This document shows positions 20,904 through 41,524 of a stretch of DNA of 44,923 nt, one piece after another (the stretch's first letter is position 1; each line of letters starts with the position of its first letter). The translations under genes and the position numbers were made by a program. The notes below the pieces were generated by a model, which searched no databases, was not told the DNA's origin, and worked only from the letters and a program-made list of their open reading frames with translations. This stretch comes from Bradyrhizobium sp. (GTDB lineage: Bacteria > Pseudomonadota > Alphaproteobacteria > Rhizobiales > Xanthobacteraceae): assembly GCF_019244115.1 (NCBI RefSeq), contig NZ_JAFATE010000314.1, forward strand, positions 1-44,923. Reading direction: 5' to 3'.

Positions 20904-22829
20904 TCAGTCGCGATCGTGACCGTGATCGTGGTCATGATCAAAGTCGTGACCATGGTCGAAATCGAACATGTCGAACAGATCGCCGATCGCCGGCATGTTG
21001 ACGGGAACGTAGGGATTGTCGTCGTCCGAGCGCGGATTGGGCAGGTTGTCGCGGCTGCGCGCCGTCAGCTTGCCGAGGTACCAGTTGCGTTCGACGAATT
21101 TCACGAACGAGGAATGCTCGTTGTAGACATGGCTGACATGGCCGCCGCGTGAGAACCGCGACACCGCGATCATCGGAATGCGCGGGCCGGTGCCGAAGAA
21201 GTCCACGGGCTGGATGAAACCGGAGTCGTAGTAGCCGCCACCCTCGTCCACCGTCACGAAGATCGCCGTGGATTCCCACTGCTCCCGATTGCTCTTAGCG
21301 AGTTCGATGATGTTCTTGGCAAAGGCCTCGAACAGATCGAACTTCGACGAGGCCGGATGACCGTCCATCGCGCCGTCGGGCTTGACATAGGAGACGGCCG
21401 GTAGCGTGCCTTTCTTCAGATCATCGAACAGGTCGGTGACATCGCGCATGTGATCGGCGCGCATTGCCGGATAGTTCAGCTGATACTCGAACGGATTGCA
21501 GATGTCGCAATAAAGTCCGTCGAGCGGAGCGCCGGTGCCGGACACGTTGTAGCCGCCACCATAATACTTCCATGGGATGTTCTTGGCGCTGAGGAGATCG
21601 CCGATCGAGGTCATCGTGACCGTCGGCACTGAACCCGCGCCGGCGGGGGTGCCCTGCGGCGTCCAGGCCGGGCCGATATTGACGGCGGGATAAAAATGGC
21701 CCGCATCGCACTTGGTCTGCAACCTGTAGGGCAGCTTGCCGAGGTAATCCAGGATCGCTTTCATGCCCGGCGCCGTCGAATCGGAGCAGTTGAACCACTG
21801 CTTGCGCGACGTATAGAGGTTGAGCGTGTTCGGTTGCGGGTCGGGATTGTAGATGGTGCTGGCCGGCGGCGCGATCGCGATGCCGTGGCCGTCGCTGTAG
21901 AAGATCTGATCGGCGAAGCCGAGCGGCATGCTGTCGGCCCAAGTCCCGCCCATGACCGGCTGATGATAGTTGTCGCTGATGGTGTAGGTGTCGGCGAGCG
22001 ACTTGAAGAAGGGCACGTCGCCCCGCTGCATGTTGAAGAACGCCATGGTCTGGCCGGTGTCGTGCGGCGTGCCGCCCGGGGGCGTCGAAAAGGTCGTGGT
22101 CACGGCCGACTGCAGATCGTGCAGGCAGCCGGTCGGATTGCGGCGGCTGACATGATTGCTGTCGATGGCACAATCCATCTGCTGATACATCTGGAAGAAC
22201 TGATGGATGGTGTCGCCGGTATAGGCGTCATAGGGCATGGTCGGTCCGGTCAACTGAAACGGGCCGGGCGGCAGCGTGTTGACATTGGTGATGCGGGTGT
22301 CCGGTCCGACGCTGTTCGGCAGGCCCGTTCCGCCCGTGCCGAACAGAAACTGATCCGCGGCCGGCAGGCCGGGATCGCCGCCGGGCAGACCGAGAATGGC
22401 AGCCGCGGGGGGATTTTGCACGCCCGCCAGGTCCGGCGCGGGCAGTGTCGCGTACAGCGTCTTGTTGGCCGGACCGGCGCTGATGAAAAACTTGCCGCCA
22501 TTCGGCGCCGAAACGATCTGGAACTGGTGCGCGCGGTCGAAATTCTCGTTCGGCGAGCCATCGGCCTTCACGATCCGCTCGGAGAGCAGATTGAGCACAT
22601 GCTCGTCGTCCGACTTCGGCCGGTAGGTCGCAAACAGATGATCAAAGCTACGGTTCTCGCCGACGATGATGATGACATGTTTGATCCGGGAGGCGGTCCT
22701 GATGCGTTCAACCGCATTCTGCGAGGCACTTCCCTCTTCCGCACGAACGGCATGTGACAGCGCGAGGGTGACGACCGATGCACCCAGCAGCAATCGGCCA
22801 AGCCTCCGCGCGAGCGAAGCTTTCCACAT
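20904..22829 (-). CDS. Secreted phosphoesterase (phospholipase C/acid phosphatase family)
   Basis: 641 aa; signal-like N-terminus; KHVIIIVGENRSFDHLFATYRP; FVTVDEGGGYYDSGFIQP; tail DFDHGHDFDHDHDHGHDRD. Confidence 0.88.
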   Translation of the reverse strand: MWKASLARRLGRLLLGASVVTLALSHAVRAEEGSASQNAVERIRTASRIKHVIIIVGENRSFDHLFATYRPKSDDEHVLNLLSERIVKADGSPNENFDRAHQFQIVSAPNGGKFFISAGPANKTLYATLPAPDLAGVQNPPAAAILGLPGGDPGLPAADQFLFGTGGTGLPNSVGPDTRITNVNTLPPGPFQLTGPTMPYDAYTGDTIHQFFQMYQQMDCAIDSNHVSRRNPTGCLHDLQSAVTTTFSTPPGGTPHDTGQTMAFFNMQRGDVPFFKSLADTYTISDNYHQPVMGGTWADSMPLGFADQIFYSDGHGIAIAPPASTIYNPDPQPNTLNLYTSRKQWFNCSDSTAPGMKAILDYLGKLPYRLQTKCDAGHFYPAVNIGPAWTPQGTPAGAGSVPTVTMTSIGDLLSAKNIPWKYYGGGYNVSGTGAPLDGLYCDICNPFEYQLNYPAMRADHMRDVTDLFDDLKKGTLPAVSYVKPDGAMDGHPASSKFDLFEAFAKNIIELAKSNREQWESTAIFVTVDEGGGYYDSGFIQPVDFFGTGPRIPMIAVSRFSRGGHVSHVYNEHSSFVKFVERNWYLGKLTARSRDNLPNPRSDDDNPYVPVNMPAIGDLFDMFDFDHGHDFDHDHDHGHDRD

Positions 22830-23008
22830 AGCTCTCTCCTGTTGGATTTTTGGAAATGAACAGCAACAGGAGCGTGCTTAGTGCGAGTCGATGACGCGCA
22901 ATTCAGCGCTTGCGTAACAGTTCGGAGACAACGAAGCGACAGGACGGTGGCAGACCGATCGGACGGTAATTATTCCGGATCGCCGTGAACACGAAATCGC
23001 GAGCGCGC

Positions 23009-24568
23009 TCACACAAGCTCCGACTCCGGAATTTCGTGCGCGAGGCGCGTTCGCAGCGGCGCGAGATTTTTGGCATGATGCCGCCACCTGCCCAGGGACG
23101 ACGTATAGATCGGACGCCGCACCTGCACCGCGCTCGCGGTCGCCGACGGCGCCGGGCTTTCATGAAAGCGCAGCACCTCGTCGGCCCAGGGCAGTCCGAG
23201 AAAATCGATGATCGTTCGGCTCGACGTTTCCGGCTCGCGCACGACATCCTCGTAGTTTACGATCATCAGCGCGTGTGGCGGCAAGGTCGCCTGCCAATGT
23301 TGCGAGAGGCGGCGATAGGCCAGAATGGTGTCCGCCAGTTCGACCTGATCGTAGGCGAACGGAAACTTGCCCTGGAAATGCGCCTTGTAGATCGCCCAGC
23401 CGGCGTCGAGCGGATGACGCTGCACCAGGATGATTTTTGCAGCCGGCAGCGCCACGTGGATCAGCCCGCAATGGAGATAGTTCTCCAGCGTCTTGTCGAG
23501 AAAGCGCGCATTCGGCGGCAGGCGGAATGCGGCGGCGTCGATATATCGCTTGCCGAGCCGTGCCGGATCGGCCGCACCGGCCTGCCCCGCGATGGCGCGG
23601 GCGAGTTCGGAAGCGAATGCGCCGGTTTCGCCGACCGAACTCATCGCCGGGTGGCTCGCGATGATGCGCTCGACCAGCGTCGTGCCGGTGCGCGGCAGGC
23701 CGGTCACGAACACCGGGGCCGCGGCGGCGTGGCCTGAAGGCGCGGAGGCGATCCAGTCCCGCGTGTGCAGGCGGATGATCCGGTCGATCTCGGCCGCCAT
23801 ATTGGGACGATCAGGCGCCATGAGGTGGAGCTGCAAGTCGCACCCGGCCTGCACATGCGCGAAGGCGCGCTCCCAAAGCTCCAGATCCTCGCATTCCTTG
23901 CCGAGCGCAAAGCGCAGCAGGATCTCGCTCGGCCGCGCCAGCTTTGCGTCGCGGATCAGCGCCTCCATCTCCTCGACATGGTTGCGGTCGGCGCTCTGGA
24001 CCCGCAGGTCCGAGCGCAGATAATGCGCAAGCGCATAATGCGGATCGCGCGCGATGGCGGCATCGCAATGCGTTTCAGCATCGCCGAGCGCACCGATCAT
24101 GCGTTCTGTCGCCGCCAGATTGAACAGATATTGCGGCACGTCAGGGCATAGCTCGACCGCGCGGACGAAGAATTCGCCGGCCCTGCGGTGCAGTCCGAGC
24201 AGGCCGAACATCGCCCCGAGCGCGTCGAGCGCGTCAGGCGCGGCGCCGACGTGCTTCGCGGCAGCTTCCGTGGCCGACAACGCCTCGCGGCTGTCGCCGC
24301 TGAGGAAAAGGCATTTGGCGCGAAGAATGAGCGGCATGGCTTGGCGCGGCGCAAGCCTGACCGCGCGGCCTGCGCAGACGATCGCGGCATCGTACCGGCC
24401 GCGCCGCAGGGCCGTCTCGGTCAGGAGACACCACGCCGCCCAATCGTCGGCGCTATCCGCGAGAATTTCCGCGCAGATGCGCTCGGTCGCGGCAATGTCT
24501 CCCGCGCCGAACGCGCGCCGGGCTGCGTCGATGCCTGGCGGCTGACGGTGTGGAACGGTTGTTCTCAA
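23009..24568 (-). CDS. TPR-domain sulfotransferase family protein
   Basis: 519 aa; N-terminal TPR-like helices, then PAPS-binding-like FVTGLPRTGTTLVERIIASHPAMSSVGE. Confidence 0.83.
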   Translation of the reverse strand: MRTTVPHRQPPGIDAARRAFGAGDIAATERICAEILADSADDWAAWCLLTETALRRGRYDAAIVCAGRAVRLAPRQAMPLILRAKCLFLSGDSREALSATEAAAKHVGAAPDALDALGAMFGLLGLHRRAGEFFVRAVELCPDVPQYLFNLAATERMIGALGDAETHCDAAIARDPHYALAHYLRSDLRVQSADRNHVEEMEALIRDAKLARPSEILLRFALGKECEDLELWERAFAHVQAGCDLQLHLMAPDRPNMAAEIDRIIRLHTRDWIASAPSGHAAAAPVFVTGLPRTGTTLVERIIASHPAMSSVGETGAFASELARAIAGQAGAADPARLGKRYIDAAAFRLPPNARFLDKTLENYLHCGLIHVALPAAKIILVQRHPLDAGWAIYKAHFQGKFPFAYDQVELADTILAYRRLSQHWQATLPPHALMIVNYEDVVREPETSSRTIIDFLGLPWADEVLRFHESPAPSATASAVQVRRPIYTSSLGRWRHHAKNLAPLRTRLAHEIPESELV

Positions 24569-24615
24569 TCAACAGGCTCCTTCCGAAAAGGAGAACGATC
24601 GCTTCCCCCCCGGCT

Positions 24616-24705
24616 CGTCATGGACGGGGCTTGTCCCGGCCATTCACGTCTTTGAAGCACCAAAGAAGAAAAACGTGGATGCCCGACACAAGGCCGGGCA
24701 TGACG
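24616..24705. repeat. Palindromic REP-like intergenic element
   Basis: Imperfect long inverted repeat CGTCATGGACGGGGCTTGTCCCGGCCATTCACGTC ... AACGTGGATGCCCGACACAAGGCCGGGCATGACG. Confidence 0.7.
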
Positions 24706-24760
24706 ACGGAGGAAATTCAGCGCCCCGGAGCCAAAGCCCCGATGCGCAATGTGCGCGCGA

Positions 24761-26848: not shown

Positions 26849-26916
26849 GTCCTCATGATGAGATGAAAATGAAAATCGAAGCGACTTGATGTCGCGCCAG
26901 AACCTAAGCGGCCGAC

Positions 26917-26934
26917 ATGACAGGTTTGCTTCAG
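26917..26934 (-). promoter_or_regulatory. Candidate PHO-box-like site upstream of phosphoesterase
   Basis: Minus strand CTGAAGC-AAAC-CTGTCAT; one half-site 7/7 and the other 3/7 to CTGTCAT. Confidence 0.35.
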
Positions 26935-27677: not shown

Positions 27678-28366
27678 CGACGGTTGCCGCGACGCGGCGG
27701 ATCGGGGGACTGCTCGCTCTCATCGACTTGCGCACGCAACGAACTTGTCGGCGACGCGCCGGCCGTGCCGGGCTGGGGAAGGCTCAGGATCTCCGTCTGC
27801 TGGTCACGCTGCAGGATCACCTCGCGGCCCTGCACCGCGCGCAGTCGCCAGCCCTGAAAATCCTCGCCGATCTTCAGGCGCAGCGCCGCCCTGCTTGCCT
27901 GGTCAATGAAGATTCCAAAACTTTCATCTCCACTCGAGATCGTGCCCACCAGTGCGAGCGGCGGCCGCTCGACCCGGGGCTTTGGCGGAGGCGGCGCCGC
28001 CTTCACCAGCGCGACCGGCGCGACGGCGGGCGGAGGCGGCCGGCGCGAGACCGAAAAGATCGGCCGCTCGCGTGTGTTCGACAGTGTCGCAAGCGGGATC
28101 GCCCATAGCGGATTGGCGCTCAGCGCGCGTTCCGGTGGTGCAGGCGCCGATACCGGCGCCTGCACCGCGACCGCCGCCGGCTGATCCCACAATGACGGCG
28201 CCGTTGGCGTATCGGCGCGCCGCGGCGGGTCGATGTCATGACCGCTGTCGTCGATTGAAAAGGCCGAGGTCGAGGCTGGCACAGCGAATGCGGACAACAG
28301 CAGCACCGCAAGCGTCCTGGCGTGTTTCAGCATCGTCCCGAGCCCGCTCATTTTGCCCCCTGCCAT
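27671..28366 (-). CDS. General secretion pathway GspN/GspC-like (PilP/HR-type) protein
   Basis: 231 aa; NPLWAIPLATLSNTRERPIFSVSRRPPPP, PPLALVGTISSGDESFGIFIDQASRAALRLKIGEDFQGWRL; Pro-rich linker. Confidence 0.65.
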   Translation of the reverse strand: MAGGKMSGLGTMLKHARTLAVLLLSAFAVPASTSAFSIDDSGHDIDPPRRADTPTAPSLWDQPAAVAVQAPVSAPAPPERALSANPLWAIPLATLSNTRERPIFSVSRRPPPPAVAPVALVKAAPPPPKPRVERPPLALVGTISSGDESFGIFIDQASRAALRLKIGEDFQGWRLRAVQGREVILQRDQQTEILSLPQPGTAGASPTSSLRAQVDESEQSPDPPRRGNRRQ

Positions 28367-28908
28367 TGGCCGGAGACCGCGATCAGGACGCGCAGCTTGC
28401 CCTCACCGCCCGCTGACGCGCCGGCCGGCGCCTGCACGGAGAGTTGGTCGACAAACAGGAACGGCATGCCGGCCTCGACGTCATAGAGCAGCTTCTGCAG
28501 GCCGGGCTGATCGATCTCGCAGTTCGCGATGACCGTGACGAAGCCTGCCTTGGCTTGCGTGCCCTGCAGATCGATCTGCGAGGACAGTACATTCCCGCCA
28601 AGCCTGGTGACCGCGGTGGACACGCGCTGCAACAGCGCCGCGCCGGCGACGGTGACGGTGGCGCCATCCAAAAATGGCGAGCCGGCGGGCCCCTGAATGT
28701 CCACGGCCGACCCATGTGACGCCGTGGTCTTGCGGCCTTCGAACTGCTCCAGCATGGCCCTTGCCGCCGCGACCTCGGCGCGCTTGCCGAGCATGTCGGC
28801 AAGCGCGCCTCCGATCACGAACAGCGCCAGCAGCATGACGCAGGCGTAGGCTGCCGCGGCCGGCAGCGGCTTGCCCAAGGCCTTTTGCAGTGTGGCGGCC
28901 TGATTCAT
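28348..28908 (-). CDS. gspM: Type II secretion protein GspM
   Basis: ORF trimmed to MNQAATLQKALGKPLP at 28908 (186 aa); single N-terminal TM, PilO-like; position between gspL and gspN. Confidence 0.7.
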   Translation of the reverse strand: MNQAATLQKALGKPLPAAAAYACVMLLALFVIGGALADMLGKRAEVAAARAMLEQFEGRKTTASHGSAVDIQGPAGSPFLDGATVTVAGAALLQRVSTAVTRLGGNVLSSQIDLQGTQAKAGFVTVIANCEIDQPGLQKLLYDVEAGMPFLFVDQLSVQAPAGASAGGEGKLRVLIAVSGQWQGAK

Positions 28909-29969
28909 GAACCTGATCCGAAATAGGGTGTGACATGGGCTTCGACATGGAAGCGCTCGCCGGGATCCTCCGGCGCGCGCGTCGTCGGAGCAAAGAATGT
29001 CGCGCGGGTGAACTGCGGTGACTGTTCGATCAGCCGGATCAGTGCGGGTGCATCCTGCGTCAGACCGGCCACCTGCATCTTGTCGCCCTCGATGCGCAGC
29101 TCCGTCACATAGGTGCTGTCCGGCAGCACGCGCGAGATGCCCTCGAGCACCATGACGCTCGACGGCGAGGTCTGCTTGCGCCGGGCGAGCAGCGTTTCGG
29201 CCGATCCGCTTCCCGGATTGAGCCGAAGCGCCGCGCGACGCTGCGCGATCCGCCGGCCCAGCTCCTGCTGTTCGGCCTCGAGCGAGCCGACCACATAGCT
29301 CGAGATTGCAAACGACAGCAGCGCCGCGGCGCAGCTGCCGAGCAGCGCGACGCGCAGCAGGCGTGGCGCATCGATCATGGAGGCGCCCGTCAGCCGCCGC
29401 TCGAACAGCGTGACCCGGTCCGTTCCGCTGGCTGCATCGACCGGCACGACCTGTCCGACGACAGACGCCGCACCGAGATTCTGCGCGAGCTTGACGAGTG
29501 GCTCGATCGTCTGCTTCGAGGTGGCCGCCAGCGTCAGGGCGATGCGGTCGCCCGCGACCGGCGCAGGCGCTGTCATGCCGAACACGGCGTCGTTTGCCGT
29601 CCACGGCGTCAAGCGGTCGATCTGGGCACGGATCATGCCGCCCAGAAAATCAGCCGCCTGTTTCGGGAAATCGACGGCGCGAAACAGCACCTGGTCCGGC
29701 CGCATCAGGATGTCGATGCGGCTGCCGCGGAACGCGGCGCGCCACTCCGCGCCGGGGGCCGGCTCGACGCGATCATGATCGAGCCTGAACGCAAGCTGTG
29801 GCAGCGTCGCCCCCTTTCGCAGCGCGCCCGCGCGCGCCGTGAAGGCGCCCGCTTCATGCTCGACGAGGACGATCCGCCGCTGCGGCGCGATTCGCGCCGT
29901 CACGGCATCGAGCGCGGCCGCGACGCCAGACATCCACACCGCGAACAGGTCTTTCAGTTCCGACATCAT
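28905..29969 (-). CDS. gspL: Type II secretion protein GspL (PilN-type domain)
   Basis: 354 aa; cytoplasmic actin-like part, TM LLRVALLGSCAAALLSFAISSYVVG, periplasmic part; synteny. Confidence 0.75.
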   Translation of the reverse strand: MMSELKDLFAVWMSGVAAALDAVTARIAPQRRIVLVEHEAGAFTARAGALRKGATLPQLAFRLDHDRVEPAPGAEWRAAFRGSRIDILMRPDQVLFRAVDFPKQAADFLGGMIRAQIDRLTPWTANDAVFGMTAPAPVAGDRIALTLAATSKQTIEPLVKLAQNLGAASVVGQVVPVDAASGTDRVTLFERRLTGASMIDAPRLLRVALLGSCAAALLSFAISSYVVGSLEAEQQELGRRIAQRRAALRLNPGSGSAETLLARRKQTSPSSVMVLEGISRVLPDSTYVTELRIEGDKMQVAGLTQDAPALIRLIEQSPQFTRATFFAPTTRAPEDPGERFHVEAHVTPYFGSGS

Positions 29970-29975
29970 GTCCTG

Positions 29976-30899
29976 TCAAAACTCCCTTGAAGCGCGCCGG
30001 AGCCTCGGCACGTCGTTCTGCCATGACAGAACCCGGTAAGGGTCCTCTTCTTTTTCGTTGCCGAGACGGATCACGATTTCGGACATCGTCTGCCGCCCGT
30101 TCGGAAAGCGCAACCGGACCTCGATCCGGTAGGCGCGGCTCTGCTGCGCGGACGCGCTGGCGGCGGCCGGGCCGAGCGCGGCGGCGATGGCCGCCTTGTC
30201 GTTCGCGAGCGCGCCTCGACCGTCCAGAAACTGCTTCAGGAGCAGCGGCGTCATGCCGGGGAGTGCCGCGATCACCTCGGGCGCTGCGGTCAGGGCATCG
30301 ACGCCAGCTGCACCGCTGAACACGGTGAGATGGGGCAGCGCCCGCGCCACCAGCGCCGGCGGCAGGCCGAGCACGAGCGCAAGCTCGTTGACATGGGCGA
30401 ACGGCGCCTGGCGCGGCGAATAGGCCCGGCCTGCCGCCCGATAGAGCGCGTCCTCTTTTCCTTTGTCGTCCTCCATCGCCTTGGTGCGCCAGGCGATGAT
30501 GCGCTCGGCATATTCGCGCGCGTCCTCCGCCGATGCACCGAGCACGGTCAAAAGGCCGGCGATCAGCTCCTTCGGCGCCGCATTGAGATCGATACGCGCC
30601 GCTTCCGACACGAAGCTGACGGCGAGATCCATGTCGCTCAGGCGGGCGTGAAACGATCCGCGCGCCGGCCGCGCCTTCTCGCCTGTGAGCTGCAGTTGAT
30701 AGGCGGTCAGTTCGACGCCGGCGGACACCAGGCCTTCGGCCTGCACCGCCTCGTCAGCAACCGAGAGCGCGCGCGCCGAGTTCGACAGATAGACCGAGAA
30801 GACCGTCACCAGCGCGGCCAACGCGGCAAGCAGCCAAAGCACCGCGACAATGACGAAGCCGCGATTGGATGATGCGCGGGACGCGGAGAATCTTGTCAT
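29976..30899 (-). CDS. gspK: Type II secretion minor pseudopilin GspK
   Basis: 307 aa; N-terminus SNRGFVIVAVLWLLAALAALVTVF lacking Glu5, typical of GspK; helix-hairpin-like region. Confidence 0.82.
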   Translation of the reverse strand: MTRFSASRASSNRGFVIVAVLWLLAALAALVTVFSVYLSNSARALSVADEAVQAEGLVSAGVELTAYQLQLTGEKARPARGSFHARLSDMDLAVSFVSEAARIDLNAAPKELIAGLLTVLGASAEDAREYAERIIAWRTKAMEDDKGKEDALYRAAGRAYSPRQAPFAHVNELALVLGLPPALVARALPHLTVFSGAAGVDALTAAPEVIAALPGMTPLLLKQFLDGRGALANDKAAIAAALGPAAASASAQQSRAYRIEVRLRFPNGRQTMSEIVIRLGNEKEEDPYRVLSWQNDVPRLRRASREF

Positions 30900-31621
30900 C
30901 CGTTTGCCCCCGGCTTTGCGGGCGCGGCCGGGGTGTCGCCCTTGCCACTGTCCTTCGTGTCGCCCTTTGCATCGTCATCGGATTTGGCGGCACCCGCGGC
31001 CGCATCGACATGGACCGTCGCCACCGTCGACACCGAGAGGACCCGTCCGCTGCCCGCCTCCCGGACGGTGAGCCTGACCAGTGCCGGCAGCATCTCCATG
31101 TCGTGCCAGGCGTCGTGGAACACGTGGTCCGGACCGGCATAGGACAGCGACAGGCGCAGCGGCGATCGCAGCAGAACCACGGGATCGGCGACGTGAATCT
31201 CCGACGGCGCGACGCCGGGCGATAGCGGTGCGAATGGCGCGCGCGAGCGCACCGTGATGAACTGGCCCTTGTCGGCGTTTTCGCCGATCCGCACCACGTC
31301 CAGCCCGATGCCGACATTGGGACCGAGCGCGGTGCGCACGAACGTCACCGCAAGCGCCGAGCCGTCGAACAGCGGCTTCTTGCTGTTGCCGCTGGCCGGC
31401 ACATATTCGGCGGCCGCGAGATCGGCGGCGACCCGCTGCATCGCGATGCCCAAAATCTCGCTGCGCTGGATGCGGTCGATGCCGCGATTCCAGTTCGGCA
31501 GCCATTGCGCGGTCAAGGTCGCGAGGGCGGACAATACGAGACCGGTCAGCGCCAGCGCGATCAGCGCCTCGATCAGCGTAAAGCCCCGCTCGCCAGCTCG
31601 CCCGATGGCCATCGTGGTCAT
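30896..31621 (-). CDS. gspJ: Type II secretion pseudopilin GspJ
   Basis: 241 aa; prepilin motif ERGFTLIEALIALALTGLVLSAL. Confidence 0.82.
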   Translation of the reverse strand: MTTMAIGRAGERGFTLIEALIALALTGLVLSALATLTAQWLPNWNRGIDRIQRSEILGIAMQRVAADLAAAEYVPASGNSKKPLFDGSALAVTFVRTALGPNVGIGLDVVRIGENADKGQFITVRSRAPFAPLSPGVAPSEIHVADPVVLLRSPLRLSLSYAGPDHVFHDAWHDMEMLPALVRLTVREAGSGRVLSVSTVATVHVDAAAGAAKSDDDAKGDTKDSGKGDTPAAPAKPGANG

Positions 31622-32031
31622 TGCCGAGGCCTTTGCATCAGGCGGACGGTCTCGAGCTCGACGCTCGCGCCGGAGGCGGCGCGTACCCGGACCTTCACCA
31701 GCTCGGGAATCCAGGCCACATCCGCATGCTCAACGATCCAGTCGCCGCCGACCGGACCGATGTCGATCCGCCAGCGAAAGTCGTGCAGCTGCCCGGAGAG
31801 TACGCCGGGCCGCAGCTCCTTGCGCGGCGGCACTTCGCTCGCGAGCACGCTCTGTGCGGTCTGCATCAGCGCGACATGGCTTTCCAGCGTCCGCACACCG
31901 CGCGCATTGGTCGACATGACAGAGCCGATCGCGACGACCGCCACCGCCACGATCGCGAGCGCGATCAGGACTTCCAGAACCGTGAAGCCGGCCTCACATC
32001 GGTCAGTTGGCGAATGGCGCGCGGGAGACAA
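31618..32031 (-). CDS. gspI: Type II secretion pseudopilin GspI
   Basis: 137 aa; prepilin motif EAGFTVLEVLIALAIVAVAVVAIG. Confidence 0.82.
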   Translation of the reverse strand: MSPARHSPTDRCEAGFTVLEVLIALAIVAVAVVAIGSVMSTNARGVRTLESHVALMQTAQSVLASEVPPRKELRPGVLSGQLHDFRWRIDIGPVGGDWIVEHADVAWIPELVKVRVRAASGASVELETVRLMQRPRQ

Positions 32032-32467
32032 TTTCGATCCTTCCGGTCAGCCAGTTGACGCGAATCTCGTAGGTCTGATCCAGCCGTGTCAGCGCGATCG
32101 CGCCGCCGCACGACATGCCGTCGGCGAAGAAGCTGATGGTCGACAGCGCCGCGTATTGCCGACAGGTTTTTGGCAGCAACGCATCGAAGCGCACGTCCTC
32201 GGGAATGCGAAGCGCCTGCGCCGTCGCGCCCGAGCGGATGGCGCGCGCATGTGCATCAACCAGCGTCGCGACGTCGGCGTGACGGCGGATCGCGATGTCG
32301 CGATCGGTCTTCAGCACCGTCGCCGCCTCCAGCGCATAGGCCTGCAGCTGCGCACGCGAGGTGTGGCGGGCAAGCGCCGGCAGCAGCACGGCCGCCAGCA
32401 CGGCGATGAGCGCGATGATGCACACCATCTCCAACAGCGTGAAGCCCTGCTGGCTGGACCTCGTCAT
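32003..32467 (-). CDS. gspH: Type II secretion pseudopilin GspH
   Basis: 154 aa; prepilin motif QQGFTLLEMVCIIALIAVLAAV. Confidence 0.82.
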   Translation of the reverse strand: MTRSSQQGFTLLEMVCIIALIAVLAAVLLPALARHTSRAQLQAYALEAATVLKTDRDIAIRRHADVATLVDAHARAIRSGATAQALRIPEDVRFDALLPKTCRQYAALSTISFFADGMSCGGAIALTRLDQTYEIRVNWLTGRIEIVSRAPFAN

Positions 32468-32950
32468 CTACTCGTTTCGCGCGCTCGTCATGGTGTCGAG
32501 CGAGATGTCGGCGGCGGTGCCGCTGCCGCCTTCCTGCCCGTCCGACCCCAGGGAAATGATGTCATAGGCGCCGTGCTCGCCGGGCGCGCGATAGATGTAG
32601 GGATGGCTCCAGGGATCGTTGGGAACGGCGCCGCCCTTCAGATAAGGCCCGTTCCAGGCGGCCACCCCGGGAGCCGGGCGCACCAGCGCGGCGAGGCCCT
32701 CCGCGCTCGACGGATAGCGGCCGGCGTCCAGATTGAAGAGATCCAGCGCGCTGGCAAAGCTCTGCATCTGGATCTTGGCCGCCTTGACCTTCGACTCGCT
32801 CAGATAGTTGAGCACGCGCGGGCCCACCAAGCCCATGATCAGACCGATGATGGTGATCACCACCAGCATCTCGACCAGCGTGAAGCCGAGCTCGCCGCCT
32901 CTGCCTTGCCGGCGATGCATGTCCCTTTTTGTTAGAGCTTCTTTTCGCAT
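32468..32950 (-). CDS. gspG: Type II secretion major pseudopilin GspG
   Basis: 160 aa; ELGFTLVEMLVVITIIGLIMGLVGPRVL, LDAGRYPSSAEGLAALVRP, DPWSHPYIYRAPGEHGAYDIISLGSDGQEGG. Confidence 0.93.
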   Translation of the reverse strand: MRKEALTKRDMHRRQGRGGELGFTLVEMLVVITIIGLIMGLVGPRVLNYLSESKVKAAKIQMQSFASALDLFNLDAGRYPSSAEGLAALVRPAPGVAAWNGPYLKGGAVPNDPWSHPYIYRAPGEHGAYDIISLGSDGQEGGSGTAADISLDTMTSARNE

Positions 32951-32962
32951 GACGACCTCCGA

Positions 32963-34174
32963 TTATCCGACGAGCTGGGTGACCGAGAGCAGCGCGGTCA
33001 TGACCGAGACGATCAGGCCGCCGACCACGGTCGAGATGGAGATGATGGCGAGCGGCCCGATGATGCCGACGACGCGATCGAGCCTGCGCTGCAGCTTGGC
33101 CTCGTAGAATTCGGCGACCCGGCCCGCGAGCACGGGCAGTTGCCCGGTCTCCTCGCCTAATCTGAGCATGCGCACCGCCATCGGCGGCAGGCTGTTGGTA
33201 GCCGACAGGCCTTCCGACAGCTTGCCGCCATGCCGCACGCGATCGGCGGCGACCGACCAGGTTTGCGCGTCACCGGTGACCGCCATGATGTCGACCAGGA
33301 TGCGCAGCGTCGCCGTCAGATTGACCCCGCTCGACAGCAGCACGCCGAGATTCCGGCAGAACAGGCTGGTCCGGTAGAAGCGGAAGATACCGGAGATGCC
33401 GGGCAGCCGCGCGATCGCGCCGATCAGGGCGGCCCGCGCGCCGCGCTGGCGCAAGGTGAACCAGATCGCGGCAATCAGGGCGGCGGCCGCGAGCGAGAGC
33501 GTCGTTGCATTGCCGCGCATGAGCTCCGACAGCTGGATGAAGAAGCTCAGCGCGGTATCGGACTTGCCGCCAAAATCCTGCAGCACGGAGGAGAATTGCG
33601 GCAGCACGAACAGGATGAAGAACAGCATCACACAGAGCGCCGCGACCAGCACGAAGGCGGGATATTGCATGGCATCCGACAGTTTGCGGCGCATCTGCTC
33701 GGCCCGTTCGCGCTCGCTCCCGAGGAGTTCCAGCACCTGGTCGAGCGTGCCGGAGACCTCGCCGACCCTGACCAGCGCGACATACATCGGCGGAAACAGC
33801 AGGGGATGGCCGCCGACTGCCTCGGCAAAGCTTTCCCCGGTCAGCAGCGCGGCACGCAATTTGGCGACCACAGGGCGCAGGCGGCCGACATCGGCATCGC
33901 TTGCAAGCAGCTCGAGCGCATCGTCAAGCCGCGCGCCGGCCTTGAGCAGCAGCGCGAGATCGCGCGTGAACGTCGTGACTTCTGCGGCGCTCGGCTGGTT
34001 GAAGAAGCCGAAGCTGGCGCCCGCCGCGGCGGCGCGTTTCTCCTCGACGGTTTCGATCGGCAGCAGCCGCAGATATTCGATGCGGGCGGCGACCTCGTGC
34101 TCGGTCGGCGCCGAGAGCGTGCCCTGGACGATCTCGCCGGTCTGGGTCAGGGCCCTGTAGCGAAATGTCGGCAC
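32963..34174 (-). CDS. gspF: Type II secretion inner-membrane protein GspF
   Basis: 403 aa (GTG start); PTFRYRALTQTGEIVQGTLSA, duplicated T2SF domain with TM segments. Confidence 0.92.
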   Translation of the reverse strand: MPTFRYRALTQTGEIVQGTLSAPTEHEVAARIEYLRLLPIETVEEKRAAAAGASFGFFNQPSAAEVTTFTRDLALLLKAGARLDDALELLASDADVGRLRPVVAKLRAALLTGESFAEAVGGHPLLFPPMYVALVRVGEVSGTLDQVLELLGSERERAEQMRRKLSDAMQYPAFVLVAALCVMLFFILFVLPQFSSVLQDFGGKSDTALSFFIQLSELMRGNATTLSLAAAALIAAIWFTLRQRGARAALIGAIARLPGISGIFRFYRTSLFCRNLGVLLSSGVNLTATLRILVDIMAVTGDAQTWSVAADRVRHGGKLSEGLSATNSLPPMAVRMLRLGEETGQLPVLAGRVAEFYEAKLQRRLDRVVGIIGPLAIISISTVVGGLIVSVMTALLSVTQLVG

Positions 34175-34183
34175 GTGTCACCT

Positions 34184-35899
34184 CTAGCGGGCGGTGGTGA
34201 CGCGGAGGATTTCCGCGGGACTGGTGAGGCCGGCCCGGCACTTGGCAAGCCCGTCATCGAGCATTGTGGTCATGCCGCCGCGGATCGCGGTTTGGTCGAC
34301 CTTCAGTCCATCGGTCTTTTCACCGATCAGTTCGCGCAGCGCGTTGTCCAGTTCGAGCACCTCGAACACGCCGATCCGGCCGCGATAGCCCGTGCCGCCG
34401 CAACGCTCGCAGCCGCAGGGCTGATGGATGGTCTCCCCGATCCGGAAGCCAAGGGAGGCAAGGCGCGGATCCTCGGCCATATCGGCCTCGTCGAGCACCC
34501 TCGCAGACTTGCAGCGTTCGCAGAGCTGGCGCACCAGCCGCTGCGCGATGACGGCGCGCAAGGTCGAGCGCAACAGATAGGCCTCGACGCCGAGATCGAG
34601 CAGCCGCGGCAGGGCGGCGGCCGCAGTCTCGGTGTGCAGCGTGGTCAGCACGAGATGCCCGGTCAGCGCGGCATGCACGGCAACATGGGCGGTCTCGGCA
34701 TCTCGGACCTCGCCGACCATGATGACGTCGGGGTCCTGGCGGACGAAGGAGCGCAGCGCGCTCGCAAAGGTGAGACCGATGGCCGGCTTGACCTGCGACT
34801 GGTTGACCCCGGCAATCTCGTATTCGACCGGATCCTCGATCGTGAGAATCTTTCGGGTCGGCTCGTTCAGGATCGACAGGATCGTCGCCAAAGTGGTGGT
34901 CTTGCCGCTGCCGGTCGGCCCGGTGATCACGATCATGCCGTGCGGCAGTTTCAAGAGACGCCGCAGCTTGGCTTCGTCGGTCCGCGCGAAGCCGAGCCTG
35001 TCGACGACCAGCAGGCCGCGATCCTTCGGCAGGATGCGGATGACGGCGGATTCGCCATGCTGGGTCGGCATGATCGCGACGCGGATGTCGATGTCGGTGC
35101 GGCCGGCGTGCAGGCGCGCCGCGCCATCCTGCGGCAGGCGGCGCTCGGCGATGTTGAGGCTTGCGATGATCTTGATGCGCGAGATGACCGCCTGCGGCAG
35201 CACGCCGGCCGGGGACGCGACCGGCCGCAGCAGGCCGTCGATCCGCATGCGAACGACGAGGCCTGACGCAAACGGCTCGACATGGATGTCGCTGGCGCGC
35301 AGTTCGACAGCCTTTTCCAGGAGATCGTTGACCGCGCGCACGACGGGCGCGCCGCTCGCGAGGTCGCGCAGGCTCTCGATATCGTCCTCGCGCAGCTGTG
35401 CGGGCCCGTCCGCATCGCGCTGTCCATCGACCTGGTCGGTCACGAGGCGCTGGTCCAGCACGATGGCGAGTTCGTCGAACGCGGCGATCCGGATTTCGAT
35501 ATCTGCGCCAAGCACGATTTCCGCCGCACGCCTGGCCGCCAGGTCTGTCGGATCGGCAATGGCGAGGATGGCGCGACGATCCTCGGACTGGTAGGGAAAG
35601 ACCAGCGTCTCGCGCAGAAAGCGCTGCGAGAAGGCGGCGATCAGCGGCGTCGCCGCCAGCATCTCTTGCAGTGCAACACGTTCGCTGTGGAAAAAGCGGG
35701 CACCCTCGTCGGCAAATTCGCCCGGCGACAGCGTAGTCATTTCCCAGAGCTTGGCGAGCGGGGCCTGTTGCGGGCTGCGCGGGCCGCTGCCCTGCGGCTG
35801 GTCGGCGATGCCGGAATCGGTAACCTGGGAGGCTTCCGTGGGCTTCAGATGCCCGGCCTGGCGAAGATACTCTATGAACTGCAATGGCTGGCCGGTCAT
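34184..35899 (-). CDS. gspE: Type II secretion ATPase GspE
   Basis: 571 aa; Walker A ITGPTGSGKTTTLATIL, RQDPDVIMVGEVRDAETAHVAVHAALTGHLVLTTLHTE, tetracysteine CERC...CGCERCGGTGYRGR. Confidence 0.94.
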   Translation of the reverse strand: MTGQPLQFIEYLRQAGHLKPTEASQVTDSGIADQPQGSGPRSPQQAPLAKLWEMTTLSPGEFADEGARFFHSERVALQEMLAATPLIAAFSQRFLRETLVFPYQSEDRRAILAIADPTDLAARRAAEIVLGADIEIRIAAFDELAIVLDQRLVTDQVDGQRDADGPAQLREDDIESLRDLASGAPVVRAVNDLLEKAVELRASDIHVEPFASGLVVRMRIDGLLRPVASPAGVLPQAVISRIKIIASLNIAERRLPQDGAARLHAGRTDIDIRVAIMPTQHGESAVIRILPKDRGLLVVDRLGFARTDEAKLRRLLKLPHGMIVITGPTGSGKTTTLATILSILNEPTRKILTIEDPVEYEIAGVNQSQVKPAIGLTFASALRSFVRQDPDVIMVGEVRDAETAHVAVHAALTGHLVLTTLHTETAAAALPRLLDLGVEAYLLRSTLRAVIAQRLVRQLCERCKSARVLDEADMAEDPRLASLGFRIGETIHQPCGCERCGGTGYRGRIGVFEVLELDNALRELIGEKTDGLKVDQTAIRGGMTTMLDDGLAKCRAGLTSPAEILRVTTAR

Positions 35900-35966
35900 G
35901 CTTCGTTCCAGTCGCAGCGTTTCAATTGAACCGATGATGCGGTGGCCGCCCGGACCAATGGTCTGG

Positions 35967-36085
35967 TGCTAGTTTGGCGCATCTGACATTCGCTACATCA
36001 TGTCCGCAGGTTCTGATAGCAAACGTCAGATCAAAGCCATACTAGAATCTTGATTTTGCTAGTGTCCTTCGGTTCTGACATCCGC
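35967..36085. promoter_or_regulatory. Imperfect direct repeat pair in the divergent gspE/gspD intergenic region
   Basis: TGCTAGT...TCTGACATTCGC (35967-35993) and TGCTAGT...TCTGACATCCGC (36057-36085). Confidence 0.35.
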
Positions 36086-36339
36086 GAATGAGCCCGCGGC
36101 GGGATAATACGAATGTCGGGACCGGGACACCAGCCTTATCGATCCGAAATGTGACACCGCTACGAAGACGGCAGTGCAGCAAACGACCATTGCCGAAAGG
36201 TCACACTTGTCTGTCATTAAGTCATCAAGCACGCCAGCTAATTGTTGTTGTCATGTTCCCCGGCTACTGATGCAACCTTGTGCGGATCGCCATCGTGCAG
36301 GATTCGCAATCGACATTGTTGAGTTGAATCGGGGAAGAG

Positions 36340-38706
36340 ATGGTGCGTGTCGGCAGTCAGCGCCGGCCTATTGCGACCGTACCTGGACTTTGTGCGATCG
36401 CGGCGGCGCTTTGCGCGATCAGCCTCTTGGCATCTTGCAACTCCGCGACATTTGGGACCACCGGAAACACGGCTCCCGCCGATATCGACGTGCTCGACAA
36501 GGTGCGTTCGCTGGACATCATGCCCCGCCAGGCACAGGGCGTGAACGGCTCACAGCCCGGGATGAACGGCCGAAGCCAGGCTGCCGTGTATGAAGGAACC
36601 GTCGTAGCGGACGTTCCCGATGCGCGGGTGCAGCGCACATCGAGCGGCAACGGCTACGATCTCAATTTCGAGAACACGCCGGTCGCGACCGTTGCCAAGG
36701 TGGTACTCGGCGACATCATGAACACCGGCTACACCATCGATCCGCGGGTGCAGGGCACGGTCAGCCTGGTCTCGGTGCGGCCGGTCGCCAAATCCGACAT
36801 CATTTTCGTGCTCGAGAGCGCCCTCAGGCTGAGTGGCGTGGTGCTGGTGCGCGACGTCAGCGGTTATCGCCTGTCGCCGCTCGGCGATGCCATCGGCTCC
36901 GGCCGGGTCGATGCGAACGCAGGGAGTCCGGAACCCGGCTACGGCGTCTCCATCGTGCCGCTGCAATATGTGTCGGCGCAGACCATTTTGAAACTGCTCG
37001 ATTCCTTTGCGACCAGGCCGGGCAGCGTGCGCGCCGACACGACGCGCAATCTGCTCATGATCCAGGGCACCGGCACCGAGCGGCAGTCGGCGGTCGAAAC
37101 CGTGATGAGCTTCGATGTCGACTGGATGCGCGGCCAGTCCGTCGGCATCTACCCGCTCGCCAACTCGGCGCCCGAACCGATCATCTCCGAACTGGAAAAG
37201 ATCATGGACTCCGGTGAAAGCGGCCTCAGCCAGAATCTCGTCAAGCTGCAGGCCATCGCCCGGCTGAATGCCATCCTGGTGGTCAGCCGCAAGCCGGCGC
37301 TGCTGCAGACCGCCGCGACCTGGATCAGGCGGCTCGACCGAGGTGACATGGCGCGCAACACCGTTCACGTCTACCATGTCCGCTTTGGCGAAGCGCGCCA
37401 GATGGCCCGGGTCCTGACCGACATGTTCATCGGCGGATCACAATCCTCGCTCGACAATGCCGACAACGAGATTGCGCCTGGATCCGGCTCGTCGGCGACA
37501 TCGAGCGTTGCCGACCGGCTGTCGCTGAATACGAACAACTCCTCCGCCGGTGGCAATTCGCAGTCTTCACCAGGCAGCTTTGCCTCGCGCTTTCAATCCG
37601 CTACGGGCGGCGGCACATCGGGGTTTGGCCAATCGTCGCAAACGGCCCAAACCGCCGCCGGATCGCAATCGGCGGCGGGCGGCGCGCTCGACAGCCGCTC
37701 CGCTGGCGGAGGCGGCCAGCCGCCGATGCAGGGCGTGCGCATCACGCCGGATACCGTCAACAACACGCTGCTGATCTATGCGGACCAGGGCAACTATCGG
37801 ATCATCGAGGCTACGCTGCAGCAGATCGACCGGCCGCAATTGCAGGTCGCGATCGATGCGACGATCGCCGAGGTGACGCTCACCAACGAATTGAGCTATG
37901 GCGTGCAGGCGTTCCTGACCAGCAAGAATCTTGGCCTGAAGCCGGACCAGGGCTCGATCCTCAATACGCAGTCGACGGCGCCGCCGGCCACAACCACCAC
38001 GACGGTCAACAATGTCGCGACCACGGTGACCAGCGCCTTCATCAACCGCGCCTTTCCGGGATTCAATTTCCTGATCGGCTCGGAGGCGCAGCCGAGCGCG
38101 ATCCTGGATGCCCTCCACACCGTCACCAGCGTCAAGGTGCTGTCCAACCCATCCCTGGTGGTGATCAACAACCAGGTCGCGACGCTGCAGGTCGGCGACG
38201 TCGTCCCGGTCTCCACCGGCAGCGCCACGGTGCTCACCACCAGCAACACCGTCGTCAACACCATCGATTACCGCAACACCGGCATCATCCTGCGCGTGTC
38301 GCCGCGCATCAATGCCAACGGCAATGTCCGGCTGGAGGTCGAGCAGGAGATCAGCAACGTCTCGCCGCAGACAGCTGCTTCGCTGACGCCGACGGTTTCG
38401 GAACGGCGGGTGAAAAGCTCGATTTCCATCGCCAACGGCCAGACCGTGCTGCTGGCCGGCCTGATCAGCGAACAGCAAAATGGCGCGCGCAACGGCATTC
38501 CCGTGCTCGACGAGATCCAGGGGCTGGGCGACGCCTTCTCGCATCAGGACAAGAAGGGCACGCGGACCGAATTGATCATCTTCATTCGTCCGCAGATCAT
38601 CCGCGACGGCAGCGATGCCCATCACGTCGCCGAAGAGCTGCGGTCGAAACTGCGTGGCAACGTGGGGGCAAGCACCGATGATCTCGTGGTTCACACGACG
38701 CGGTGA
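36340..38706 (+). CDS. gspD: Type II secretion outer-membrane secretin GspD, predicted lipoprotein
   Basis: 788 aa; N-terminal LLASC lipobox, secretin N-domains, Gly/Ser/Gln linker, secretin core VKVLSNPSLVVINNQVATLQVGDVVPV and GIPVLDEIQGLGDAFSHQDKKGTRTELIIFIRPQII. Confidence 0.93.
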   Translation: MVRVGSQRRPIATVPGLCAIAAALCAISLLASCNSATFGTTGNTAPADIDVLDKVRSLDIMPRQAQGVNGSQPGMNGRSQAAVYEGTVVADVPDARVQRTSSGNGYDLNFENTPVATVAKVVLGDIMNTGYTIDPRVQGTVSLVSVRPVAKSDIIFVLESALRLSGVVLVRDVSGYRLSPLGDAIGSGRVDANAGSPEPGYGVSIVPLQYVSAQTILKLLDSFATRPGSVRADTTRNLLMIQGTGTERQSAVETVMSFDVDWMRGQSVGIYPLANSAPEPIISELEKIMDSGESGLSQNLVKLQAIARLNAILVVSRKPALLQTAATWIRRLDRGDMARNTVHVYHVRFGEARQMARVLTDMFIGGSQSSLDNADNEIAPGSGSSATSSVADRLSLNTNNSSAGGNSQSSPGSFASRFQSATGGGTSGFGQSSQTAQTAAGSQSAAGGALDSRSAGGGGQPPMQGVRITPDTVNNTLLIYADQGNYRIIEATLQQIDRPQLQVAIDATIAEVTLTNELSYGVQAFLTSKNLGLKPDQGSILNTQSTAPPATTTTTVNNVATTVTSAFINRAFPGFNFLIGSEAQPSAILDALHTVTSVKVLSNPSLVVINNQVATLQVGDVVPVSTGSATVLTTSNTVVNTIDYRNTGIILRVSPRINANGNVRLEVEQEISNVSPQTAASLTPTVSERRVKSSISIANGQTVLLAGLISEQQNGARNGIPVLDEIQGLGDAFSHQDKKGTRTELIIFIRPQIIRDGSDAHHVAEELRSKLRGNVGASTDDLVVHTTR

Positions 38707-39247
38707 CGGCGTCGCCGCAGGCGCGTCACACCATTTGATAGCGGCGGATGCGCACTGGCGCGTCTGGCTTACGGTCGCGCTGCTCGCAGTATGCTGCGTC
38801 GGACAGCCGGCGCCCGCGCGTGCGGACGCGGTCGCGCGCGCCAACGCCGCCTATGCCCGCGGCGACTTCATCCAGGCGGTCAACCTGTTGACGCCGCCGG
38901 CACTGCATGGAAACGCGCGGGCGCAGGCGTTTCTCGGCTTTCTGTATGAGAACGGCTACGGCGCGCCGCAGGCCTATGTCGCTGCCGCAGATCTTTATAT
39001 GCAGGCGGCGGTCAGCGGTAATCCGTTCGCTCAGTGCATGCTCGGGCTGATGTACGACAAAGGGCATGGCGTGCCGCAGGATTTCGTGCTGGCCTATAAA
39101 TGGCTCGATCTCGCCGCGGCGCGGGCTTCGCTGCGGGAGCGCGATTATTTCTTGCGCCTGCGCAATGCCGTGGCCTCAAAGATGTCGCCGGCGCAGATCG
39201 GCGAAGGACAGCATCTCGCGCTTAGCTGGGCACCGGGCCGATTCTAA
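38678..39247 (+). CDS. Sel1-repeat-containing periplasmic protein
   Basis: Trimmed from ORF 38615..39247; signal peptide ...LLAVCCVGQPAPARA; AQAFLGFLYENGYGAPQAY and AQCMLGLMYDKGHGVPQDFVLAYKWLDLAAA. Confidence 0.78.
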   Translation: MISWFTRRGDGVAAGASHHLIAADAHWRVWLTVALLAVCCVGQPAPARADAVARANAAYARGDFIQAVNLLTPPALHGNARAQAFLGFLYENGYGAPQAYVAAADLYMQAAVSGNPFAQCMLGLMYDKGHGVPQDFVLAYKWLDLAAARASLRERDYFLRLRNAVASKMSPAQIGEGQHLALSWAPGRF

Positions 39248-39266
39248 ATTCATTGCCCGGCACGAC

Positions 39267-39290
39267 AATGTCACGGCGTGCCGCGACATT
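39267..39290. promoter_or_regulatory. 24-bp near-perfect palindrome
   Basis: AATGTCACGGC-GT-GCCGCGACATT, one mismatch between arms. Confidence 0.45.
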
Positions 39291-39400
39291 CATGTGCGTT
39301 CCGGTCAGACGTCACGCCAGCGTCAACGTAGCGCAACACGCCGCACCGTAATCTCTCCATGTCGGACATTTCAGTCTTCACCAGCCGACGTCGGGAGAAC

Positions 39401-41524
39401 ATGATGACAAGATTGAAAGCTCAAATGCGGGCGCCGATCTCCGTTGCGCTCGGCCTGTTCTTTCTCGGTACCGCCTCGCAATCGGCATCGGCCGCCTGCC
39501 AGTTGCATTCGCCGGACGGCCGGATCAAGCATGTGATCAATATCGTTTTCGACAACGTGCATCTGCGGCGTGACAATCCGAACGTTCCCTCCGACCTCGA
39601 ACAGATGCCGAACCTGCTCAACTTCCTGCAGAGCAACGGCGTCGTCAGCGGCAACAACCATACGCCGCTGATCTCGCACACCGCGCACGACATCGTCACC
39701 GGTCTGACCGGCGTCTATGGCGACCGCAACGGTATTCCCGTCGCCAACTCCTACGGCTTCTTCAAGCCGGACGGCAGCGTCGGCTTCTCGAGCTCCTTCC
39801 TGTACTGGACCGCGCTCGGCGGCGACGGCAAACCGGAAATGCTCAACGAACTGGGCAAGACCGCGCCCGCGCCATGGGTGCCCTATACCCGCGCCGGCTG
39901 TGACGTCGGCGCGTTCTCCGTCGCCAATATCGAGTTCGAGCGCGTGCCGGACGACGTGACAACATTCTATGGCGCGGGCAGCCCTCAGGACCTCGCGGTG
40001 CGGGCGGACCTCGCCTCGTCGAGCCCGGCCACCCGCCAGCAGGCGACCACCGACTATCTCGGCATCGCCATCCATTGCGCCGTCGGCAGCAAGCTCTGCC
40101 AAAACGGCTTTGCCGCAAATGATCCCCTGCCCGACGAGCCCAACGGCTATGTCGGCTTCAAGGGCCTGTTCGGCAACATCAACGTGCAGCCGGTGATCTC
40201 GCCATCCGGTCCGGTGAAGGATCTTGATGGCAACGTGATTGCCGACCAGTTCGGCCATCCCGGCTTCCCGAACGGTTTTAGCCCGCTGGCGACGCAATCG
40301 CTCGGCTATGCCGCGACCATGCTCGAATCCGGCGTGCCGGTGGTGTATTTCTACATCGCCGACGCGCATGACAACCGCTCCGCCCCCGGCACCTTCGGCC
40401 CCGGCGAGGCCGGCTACGTCGCGCAGCTCAAGCAGTACGACATCGCGTTCGGAAAATTCTTCGAGCGCCTCGCCAAGGACGGCATCACCAAGGACAATAC
40501 GCTGTTCACGGTGGTGCCCGACGAGAACGATCATTTCGTCGGCAGCGCTCCGACGCCGGCCAATTGCGACGGCATCAAGGTGCCCTGCACCTATGCAAAG
40601 GTCGGCGAGGTCAACGCCCAAATCGATCGTCTCTTGATCACGCAGCGCGCCAACACGACACCGTTCGCGATCCACACCGATGACGCGCCGACCTTCTATC
40701 TCACCGGCAATCCAGCGCCAACCGCCGCCGTCACCCGCACGATGGAGCACGATCTGGATGCGCTGGTCGCGACCAACCCGATCACCGGCAATACCGACAA
40801 GCTGTCGGCGCTGCTGGCCGATCAGGCCGAGATGAAGCTGCTGCACATGGTCACCACGAGCGCCGCACGCACGCCGACGCTGACCATGTTCGGCAACGAA
40901 AATTACTTCTTCGTAACCGTCAGCAAGCCGCCTGCGACGGCTTGCGCGGTTCAGTCCGACTGCGTCTTCGTCGGCTCCGGCTTTGCCTGGAATCACGGCG
41001 ACTTCCAAAGGGACATCACGCGGACCTGGGTCGCGATGGTCGGCCCCGGCGTGAAACAGCTCGGGCGCAATGATGAGGTGTTCACCGATCATGCCGACGT
41101 GCGGCCGACGGTCATGGCGCTGCTCGGCCTCTCCGACGACTATCTGCATGAGGGCCGCGTGGTCGCCGAATGGATCAATGAGCGCGCGCTGCCGGACGGC
41201 ATCCGTGATGCCCGGGAAAACTTCATCGAGCTCGCGCAGGCCTACAAGCAGCTTAATGCCCCGCTCGGCCGGCTCGGCCGCGCGAGCCTCGTCTGGTCGA
41301 ATCGCTCCGTGATCGCGACCGACAAGGTCTATGCGCGCTATCTGAAGGAGATCGGCGACGTCACTGAGGATCGCGACGAACTCGCGGGCCAGATCAAGAC
41401 GGTGCTCGACAACGCGGCATTCCATCATCGTCCGGTCGACGAACGGGCCGAAGACGGGCTTGGCGATCGCGCGAAAAGGCTGATCGACCACGTCGAGGAT
41501 CGCGCCGAACGCGATCGCGACTGA
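39401..41524 (+). CDS. Secreted alkaline-phosphatase-superfamily protein
   Basis: ORF 39359..41524 trimmed to MMTRLKAQ; signal peptide ALGLFFLGTASQSASA; IVFDNVHLRRDN, HTAHDIVTGLTGVYGDRNG, VVPDENDHF, TDHADVRPTVMALLGLSDDY. Confidence 0.82.
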   Translation: MMTRLKAQMRAPISVALGLFFLGTASQSASAACQLHSPDGRIKHVINIVFDNVHLRRDNPNVPSDLEQMPNLLNFLQSNGVVSGNNHTPLISHTAHDIVTGLTGVYGDRNGIPVANSYGFFKPDGSVGFSSSFLYWTALGGDGKPEMLNELGKTAPAPWVPYTRAGCDVGAFSVANIEFERVPDDVTTFYGAGSPQDLAVRADLASSSPATRQQATTDYLGIAIHCAVGSKLCQNGFAANDPLPDEPNGYVGFKGLFGNINVQPVISPSGPVKDLDGNVIADQFGHPGFPNGFSPLATQSLGYAATMLESGVPVVYFYIADAHDNRSAPGTFGPGEAGYVAQLKQYDIAFGKFFERLAKDGITKDNTLFTVVPDENDHFVGSAPTPANCDGIKVPCTYAKVGEVNAQIDRLLITQRANTTPFAIHTDDAPTFYLTGNPAPTAAVTRTMEHDLDALVATNPITGNTDKLSALLADQAEMKLLHMVTTSAARTPTLTMFGNENYFFVTVSKPPATACAVQSDCVFVGSGFAWNHGDFQRDITRTWVAMVGPGVKQLGRNDEVFTDHADVRPTVMALLGLSDDYLHEGRVVAEWINERALPDGIRDARENFIELAQAYKQLNAPLGRLGRASLVWSNRSVIATDKVYARYLKEIGDVTEDRDELAGQIKTVLDNAAFHHRPVDERAEDGLGDRAKRLIDHVEDRAERDRD

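Follow-up and report, generated by a model that had tools for sequence, protein, structure and literature searches.

Phosphoesterase genes of several families accompany one group of type II secretion systems in Bradyrhizobium

Background

It has long been asked how a type II secretion system (T2SS) chooses its cargo, and the stretch of DNA studied here raises the question for a single locus. Contig NZ_JAFATE010000314.1 of a Bradyrhizobium sp. (hereafter the window, i.e., the whole contig, C447 in our numbering, 44,923 nucleotides (nt)) carries a complete T2SS gene cluster bracketed by two PF04185 phosphoesterase genes on one side (PE1 and PE2) and, on the other, by one gene for what looks like a divergent member of the alkaline phosphatase superfamily (AP3). 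Are these neighbours the cargo of the system? A sequence-only reading had proposed that they are, describing the locus as a dedicated phosphatase exporter analogous to the Hxc system of Pseudomonas. Since other groups of T2SSs occur in the same genus, they form a natural comparison set for the group to which the window belongs (class A, defined below). The linkage with phosphoesterase genes turned out to be conserved in this group, and we consider it probable that the main job of the class A T2SS, in Bradyrhizobium and near relatives, is to export enzymes of the alkaline phosphatase superfamily that release phosphate, delivering them to the exterior or to the cell surface; the term "dedicated" goes too far for the present evidence. 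A literature search found no paper on a linkage between T2SSs and phosphoesterases in Bradyrhizobium. If the proposed role is true, the exoenzymes and the exporter for the release of organic phosphorus would be named in a genus that is very common in soils and root nodules.

Methods

The source genome is a 7.6 Mb draft in 915 contigs with a completeness of 91%. Its closest matches are to Bradyrhizobium, Tardiphaga, and alphaproteobacterial metagenome-assembled genomes, which places the organism in Bradyrhizobium or near it. Genes were identified with Pfam and NCBIfam profiles using their gathering scores or cut-offs, while gspH, gspI, and gspJ were assigned by the N_methyl motif and conserved gene order. 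Matches to gspD were collected from 149 genomes of the genus and grouped by percent identity to the gspD of the window (class A ≥ 69%, class B 56–67%, class C 52–55%, class D 44–49%, class E 36%), these classes being identity bands and not tree clades. PF04185 genes in the relatives were found with PE2 as a query and were considered linked when located within a radius of 25 kb. Genome counts are not independent and gene calls in the relatives are mechanical. Numbers preceded by G, C, or L are our own handles for genomes, contigs, and loci.

Results

Linkage of phosphoesterases to class A systems

A PF04185 gene was found ≤ 25 kb from gspD in 28 of the 38 class A loci and in none of the 59 loci of the other groups counted (class B 0/18, class C 0/32, class E 0/9; Fisher p = 3e-16, a value that overstates the evidence because the genomes are related). 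The linkage predicted by the sequence-only reading is thus conserved in related genomes, where nearly all linked genes lie about 13–14 kb upstream of gspD and on the opposite strand, and four of the ten class A loci that lack one are contig ends or fragments. When the neighbourhoods (± 10 kb) of class C loci were fetched, the phosphoesterase set matched only one of 39, which belongs to Roseiarcus. Outside the genus, the linkage was seen at single loci of Tardiphaga, Roseiarcus, and a Xanthobacteraceae metagenome-assembled genome.

A lipid-anchored secretin had also been put forward as a mark of phosphatase export, a candidate we rejected. The lipobox at C33 of the window's GspD is real, but the lipobox cysteine is general in the genus (present in 34 of the 35 secretins of class A and in all 38 of class C), so that its presence in nearly all Bradyrhizobium T2SSs checked is uninformative about phosphatases and implies no special link to Hxc.

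Different phosphoesterases at equivalent loci

The usual neighbour of class A systems belongs to a third PF04185 clade (PE-A) and is orthologous to neither PE1 nor PE2. The typical gene order starts with PE-A, continues with the genes of a CCP_MauG di-haem peroxidase and an imelysin, and then reaches gspO; this intervening pair is present in most class A loci and missing from the window. Where class A loci lack PE-A, other phosphoesterases can occupy its place: G171 encodes three in a row, namely a PF04185 protein resembling acid phosphatases, a phospholipase C (PF04185 and PF05506), and a PF01663 protein, and G159 has one PF01663 protein. G096 has a secreted protein of 674 amino acids (aa) with no Pfam match and a DUF3604-type likeness seen by eye only. 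In a tree of 42 PF04185 proteins, the T2SS-linked genes are spread over several clades, so that linkage must have been gained or lost six times or more (some branches are long and the deep joins are unsure), which indicates that phosphoesterases joined the class A T2SS more than once.

The phosphoesterases of the window

Both PE1 and PE2 are PF04185 phosphoesterases with signal peptides, as had been claimed, scoring 166 and 172 bits, respectively, against a gathering score of 23, and PE2 matches a solved acid phosphatase and a solved phospholipase C in sequence searches. Orthologues of PE1 (82–84% identity) are T2SS-linked in L012 and unlinked in L139, L140, and L143, the last of which (genome G055) has a PadR–HAAS gene pair adjoining it; PadR regulator, HAAS, and DUF2807 genes are also found in the window (positions 42500–44321). 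PE2 forms a conserved pair with a gene for a TPR and sulfotransferase protein (L138, L144, L145, and L146), and in the relatives this two-gene unit stands apart from any T2SS. Judging from gene order, the window looks like several modules assembled around one T2SS.

Two sequence features were considered as export or anchoring signals and discarded. The shared C-terminal end of PE1, PE2, and PE-A (PA(I/L)(G/S)DLF..FDF) is carried by unlinked relatives too and is therefore not a T2SS-specific signal, and a lipobox in PE2 (LMGC) is not kept in its orthologues. The Asp/His-rich tails of PE1 and PE2 are likewise present in unlinked relatives.

AP3, the third flanking protein

The gene at 39401 had been assigned to the alkaline phosphatase superfamily; its signal peptide and superfamily-like residues are there, but no family profile in Pfam or NCBIfam scores above its cut-off against the window protein. 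The PF01663 profile matches 14 of 18 members of the AP3 family (best E = 3e-6; the window protein itself E = 0.043), and a profile search of solved structures returned weak colinear matches to ENPP4 and a sulfatase, while comparison of the AP3 profile with the PF04185 and PF01663 sets gave low probabilities (15–18%). Among the residues common to all 18 members are D51, T94, H323, and H564, in an arrangement like that of the alkaline phosphatase superfamily, and in the window protein D51, T94, D321, H323, D377, H378, and H564 are candidate metal ligands or nucleophile, with roles assigned by eye. AP3 thus looks like a divergent member of this superfamily. An AlphaFold model was discarded (predicted local distance difference test score of 31, alignment of three sequences).

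In the relatives, AP3-family genes are linked to a gspD at 10 of 18 places; counted by class, they lie beside gspD in 3/38 class A and 7/10 class D loci. The class D proteins have H378 replaced by R, most have D374 replaced by S/T, and some have D321 replaced by N; with these changes, which include the loss of a His of the predicted metal pair, they may be inactive.

Promoter sequences

The interval between the divergent gspD and gspE of class A retains two conserved blocks amid divergence, one toward gspD (TGTCAT, 10 nt, TA) and one toward gspE (TGTCA(T/C), 10 nt, GATAA). Exact CTGTCAT occurs on the gspD strand in 25/33 class A versus 1/37 class C intervals and on the gspE strand in 12/33 versus 0/37, where about 2–3% would be expected. 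The pstS promoters of the genus carry CTGTCATCCAACTGTCAT or close variants, and two such repeats 11 nt apart were seen in four of the five counted (G034, G135, G159, and G171; G084 has one and a near-match; G141, with two pstS loci on the minus strand, is not counted). The spacing between the repeat and the −10 element matches that of PhoB promoters. The second repeat is weak at the T2SS promoters.

Gene content of the locus

The cluster consists of gspO, a C/N-like gene, gspM-L-K-J-I-H-G-F-E, and a divergent gspD (Table 1). All gsp genes named by the sequence-only reading were recovered by profiles and gene order at their positions; as corrections to its inventory, gspO lies on the plus strand and is convergent with the gsp operon, and the Sel1-repeat and TPR-sulfotransferase genes had been omitted. 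The gene called "N/C-like" is present, although its likeness to GspC models is weak. The best NCBIfam score of GspE is for type_II_gspE, yet it lies below the cut-off of that model.

Almost every class A locus has a Sel1-repeat gene beside gspD, and in class C such a gene lies nearby on the other strand; the secreted product is a possible T2SS accessory. The window's genome has five secretin matches, of which, besides the window's own, those on C531 and C210 are T2SS gspD genes. A contig of this genome other than the window (L160) holds a class B-type locus, and in loci of this type a protein of 608–621 aa with a sub-threshold Porin_O_P match (E = 0.0003–0.002) is encoded immediately before gspD.

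Table 1. Annotated features of the window, followed by examples from other loci (locus handle before the positions)
Feature	Position	Strand	Basis
PE1, PF04185 phosphoesterase with signal peptide, 641 aa, Asp/His-rich tail	20904-22829	-	E = 1.7e-48
TPR and Sulfotransfer_3 protein, between PE1 and PE2	23009-24568	-	profile match
PE2, PF04185 phosphoesterase with signal peptide, 695 aa	24761-26848	-	E = 2e-50
gspO prepilin peptidase, Peptidase_A24 domain only, 157 aa	27204-27677	+	E = 1e-15
GspC/N-like protein, 231 aa	27671-28366	-	GspC models E = 1.7e-7 to 6e-3, below cut-off; no Pfam match
gspM, subtype b (T2SSM_b)	28348-28908	-	E = 2.5e-31
gspL (PilN-type domain)	28905-29969	-	E = 2.7e-14
gspK	29976-30899	-	E = 3e-13
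gspJ	30896-31621	-	N_methyl and conserved gene order
gspI	31618-32031	-	N_methyl and conserved gene order
gspH	32003-32467	-	N_methyl and conserved gene order
gspG major pseudopilin	32468-32950	-	T2SSG E = 3e-38; matches solved GspG structures
gspF	32963-34174	-	E = 6e-50
gspE ATPase	34184-35899	-	T2SSE E = 5e-126
Pho-box-like half-site GTGTCAC, 10 nt, GATAAG; putative gspE promoter	36135-36157	-	conserved block; inference
CTGTCAT in gspD/gspE interval	36211-36217	+	read from sequence
Pho-box-like half-site TTGTCAT, 10 nt, TACTGA; putative gspD promoter	36248-36270	+	conserved block; inference
gspD secretin (N0 and secretin domains), lipobox LLAS-C33-N	36340-38706	+	NCBIfam type_II_gspD 414 bits, cut-off 351
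Sel1-repeat protein with signal peptide, adjoins gspD	38675-39247	+	E = 3e-12
AP3, divergent alkaline-phosphatase-superfamily-like protein with signal peptide	39401-41524	+	weak profile/structure matches, conserved residues
CCP_MauG/imelysin example	L118:8664-10828	-	
Porin_O_P-like protein before class B-type gspD	L160:9375-11240		
Porin_O_P-like protein before class B-type gspD	L042:7986-9809		
Porin_O_P-like protein before class B-type gspD	L044:7983-9815		

Discussion

Proposed function and its alternatives

In the mechanism that we propose, signal peptides would take PE1, PE2, and AP3 across the inner membrane into the periplasm, where the proteins would fold before the GspE/F/L/M platform and the G–K pseudopilus drive them through the lipid-anchored GspD channel. 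Once outside, the enzymes would release phosphate from organic phosphorus (phosphomonoesters, phosphodiesters, and phospholipid headgroups), and the freed phosphate would enter via Pst. Phosphate starvation would probably raise the production of the T2SS through PhoB acting at the gspD and gspE promoters.

Several observations weigh against such a role. Some complete class A genomes have neither a PF04185 nor an AP3 gene nearby (e.g., G135), none of the 13 close PE2 orthologues in relatives (72–80% identity) lies within 25 kb of any gspD, and in G122 and G082 PE1, another PF04185 gene, and AP3 cluster without a T2SS. In an order-wide sample, none of the five genomes outside the genus that have both gspG and a PF04185 gene hold the two on one contig. 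As for regulation, when the window was scored against the consensus of a Pho box with two repeats, its best match was no better than in shuffles, so the Pho case rests on conservation, and most promoters of the phosphatase genes have no Pho-type half-site. Given this and the weak second repeat, PhoB control of the class A T2SS is rated no higher than likely.

These points bear differently on the two alternatives that we weighed. One holds that the class A system is a general-purpose T2SS that exports many unrelated enzymes, the neighbouring phosphoesterases being part of its cargo. The loci without phosphoesterases nearby fit this, as do the genes for TonB receptors, PepSY proteins, di-haem peroxidases, and imelysins in the surroundings of many class A systems and the fact that cargo genes of T2SSs elsewhere are often unlinked to the system. 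We nevertheless consider it rather unlikely, as the secreted enzymes beside class A are repeatedly phosphoesterases, and of different families, while the other T2SS groups of the genus differ in this respect, and as the promoter half-site conserved in class A is of Pho type. The other alternative, to which we give little credence, is a shared neighbourhood without export: the phosphoesterases would be periplasmic or leave the cell otherwise (by another T2SS or in vesicles), and the linkage would reflect joint phosphate regulation or inheritance as an island. The clusters of PE1, another phosphoesterase, and AP3 and the PE2–sulfotransferase pairs that exist without a T2SS count in its favour, the scarcity of the half-site at phosphoesterase promoters agrees with it, and the window's genome does encode other T2SSs through which export could proceed. 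Against it, the linkage recurs with several phosphoesterase families and only at particular T2SS groups, and inheritance of a single island predicts one clade, whereas the number of changes needed in the PF04185 tree speaks against plain one-island inheritance.

Export of phosphate-releasing enzymes by class A thus remains our favoured interpretation. A bolder version of it, which we regard as doubtful, sees class A as an export platform for phosphate scavenging to which phosphoesterases of different families have been added time and again; cargo recognition may then rest on a feature shared across the superfamily and not on one cognate substrate. Class D would, in the same version, be a sister phosphate T2SS with a PstS-like binder and inactive AP3 "pseudo-phosphatases".

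Comparison with known and sister systems

The Xcp system of Pseudomonas exports phospholipase C and phosphatase, i.e., PF04185-type enzymes, along with a wide range of other cargo encoded away from the Xcp genes. The Hxc system of Pseudomonas is encoded beside phosphate-starvation exoproteins (PMC2225411, PMC7035377) and is under phosphate-starvation control in P. aeruginosa (PMC7035377), although hxcR of P. fluorescens SBW25 is not induced by phosphate limitation (PMC2225411). Hxc-type systems were judged here by a lipid-anchored secretin, a DING/LapA-type cargo gene, and phosphate-starvation control (PhoB, VreI). Like Hxc, the window T2SS is clustered with genes of putative phosphate-acquisition exoproteins and has a lipid-anchored secretin (predicted here). 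The cargo of Hxc is DING-type or DING-like (Psp of SBW25 is a DING protein and LapA is DING-like; PMC2225411), whereas the window candidates are PF04185 proteins and the divergent, phosphodiesterase-like AP3. No DING/LapA-type cargo gene is present in the window cluster, and no sigma or anti-sigma genes are found among the annotated window genes, unlike in Hxc; moreover, gspO lies inside the cluster in the window. The analogy through LapA-type cargo therefore fails, LapA belonging to a different (DING/PstS-type) family from the window enzymes, and the likeness to Hxc is functional and not one of shared cargo.

Class D of Bradyrhizobium is closer to Hxc in content than class A is. In L131–L133 (G130:C37, G141, and G034) an AP3-family gene stands directly before gspD, a linkage also seen in the window, to whose gspD theirs is about 46% identical. 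L132 and L133 additionally encode a PBP_like_2 (PstS-like) protein of 643–646 aa beside gspG, a family-41 glycosyltransferase, TPR proteins, and a small sigma-factor-like protein (by eye), and L131 has a FecR gene.

The nearest alphaproteobacterial precedent is the T2SS of Caulobacter crescentus, which secretes ElpS under phosphate starvation, a cargo that raises extracellular alkaline phosphatase activity (PMC2996285). It resembles the window in its adjoining phosphate-starvation cargo gene and in a gspO inverted behind gspN (PMC2996285), and differs in that its gsp genes follow alphabetical order, whereas gspD is divergent from E–M in the window. A further difference is that ElpS, a lipoprotein, is not itself a phosphatase and is thought to act as the activator of one, while the window candidates look like phosphatase-type enzymes. 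On our best reading, the class A T2SS joins the phosphate-scavenging T2SSs already known, and its most interesting feature is the repeated recruitment of phosphoesterases.

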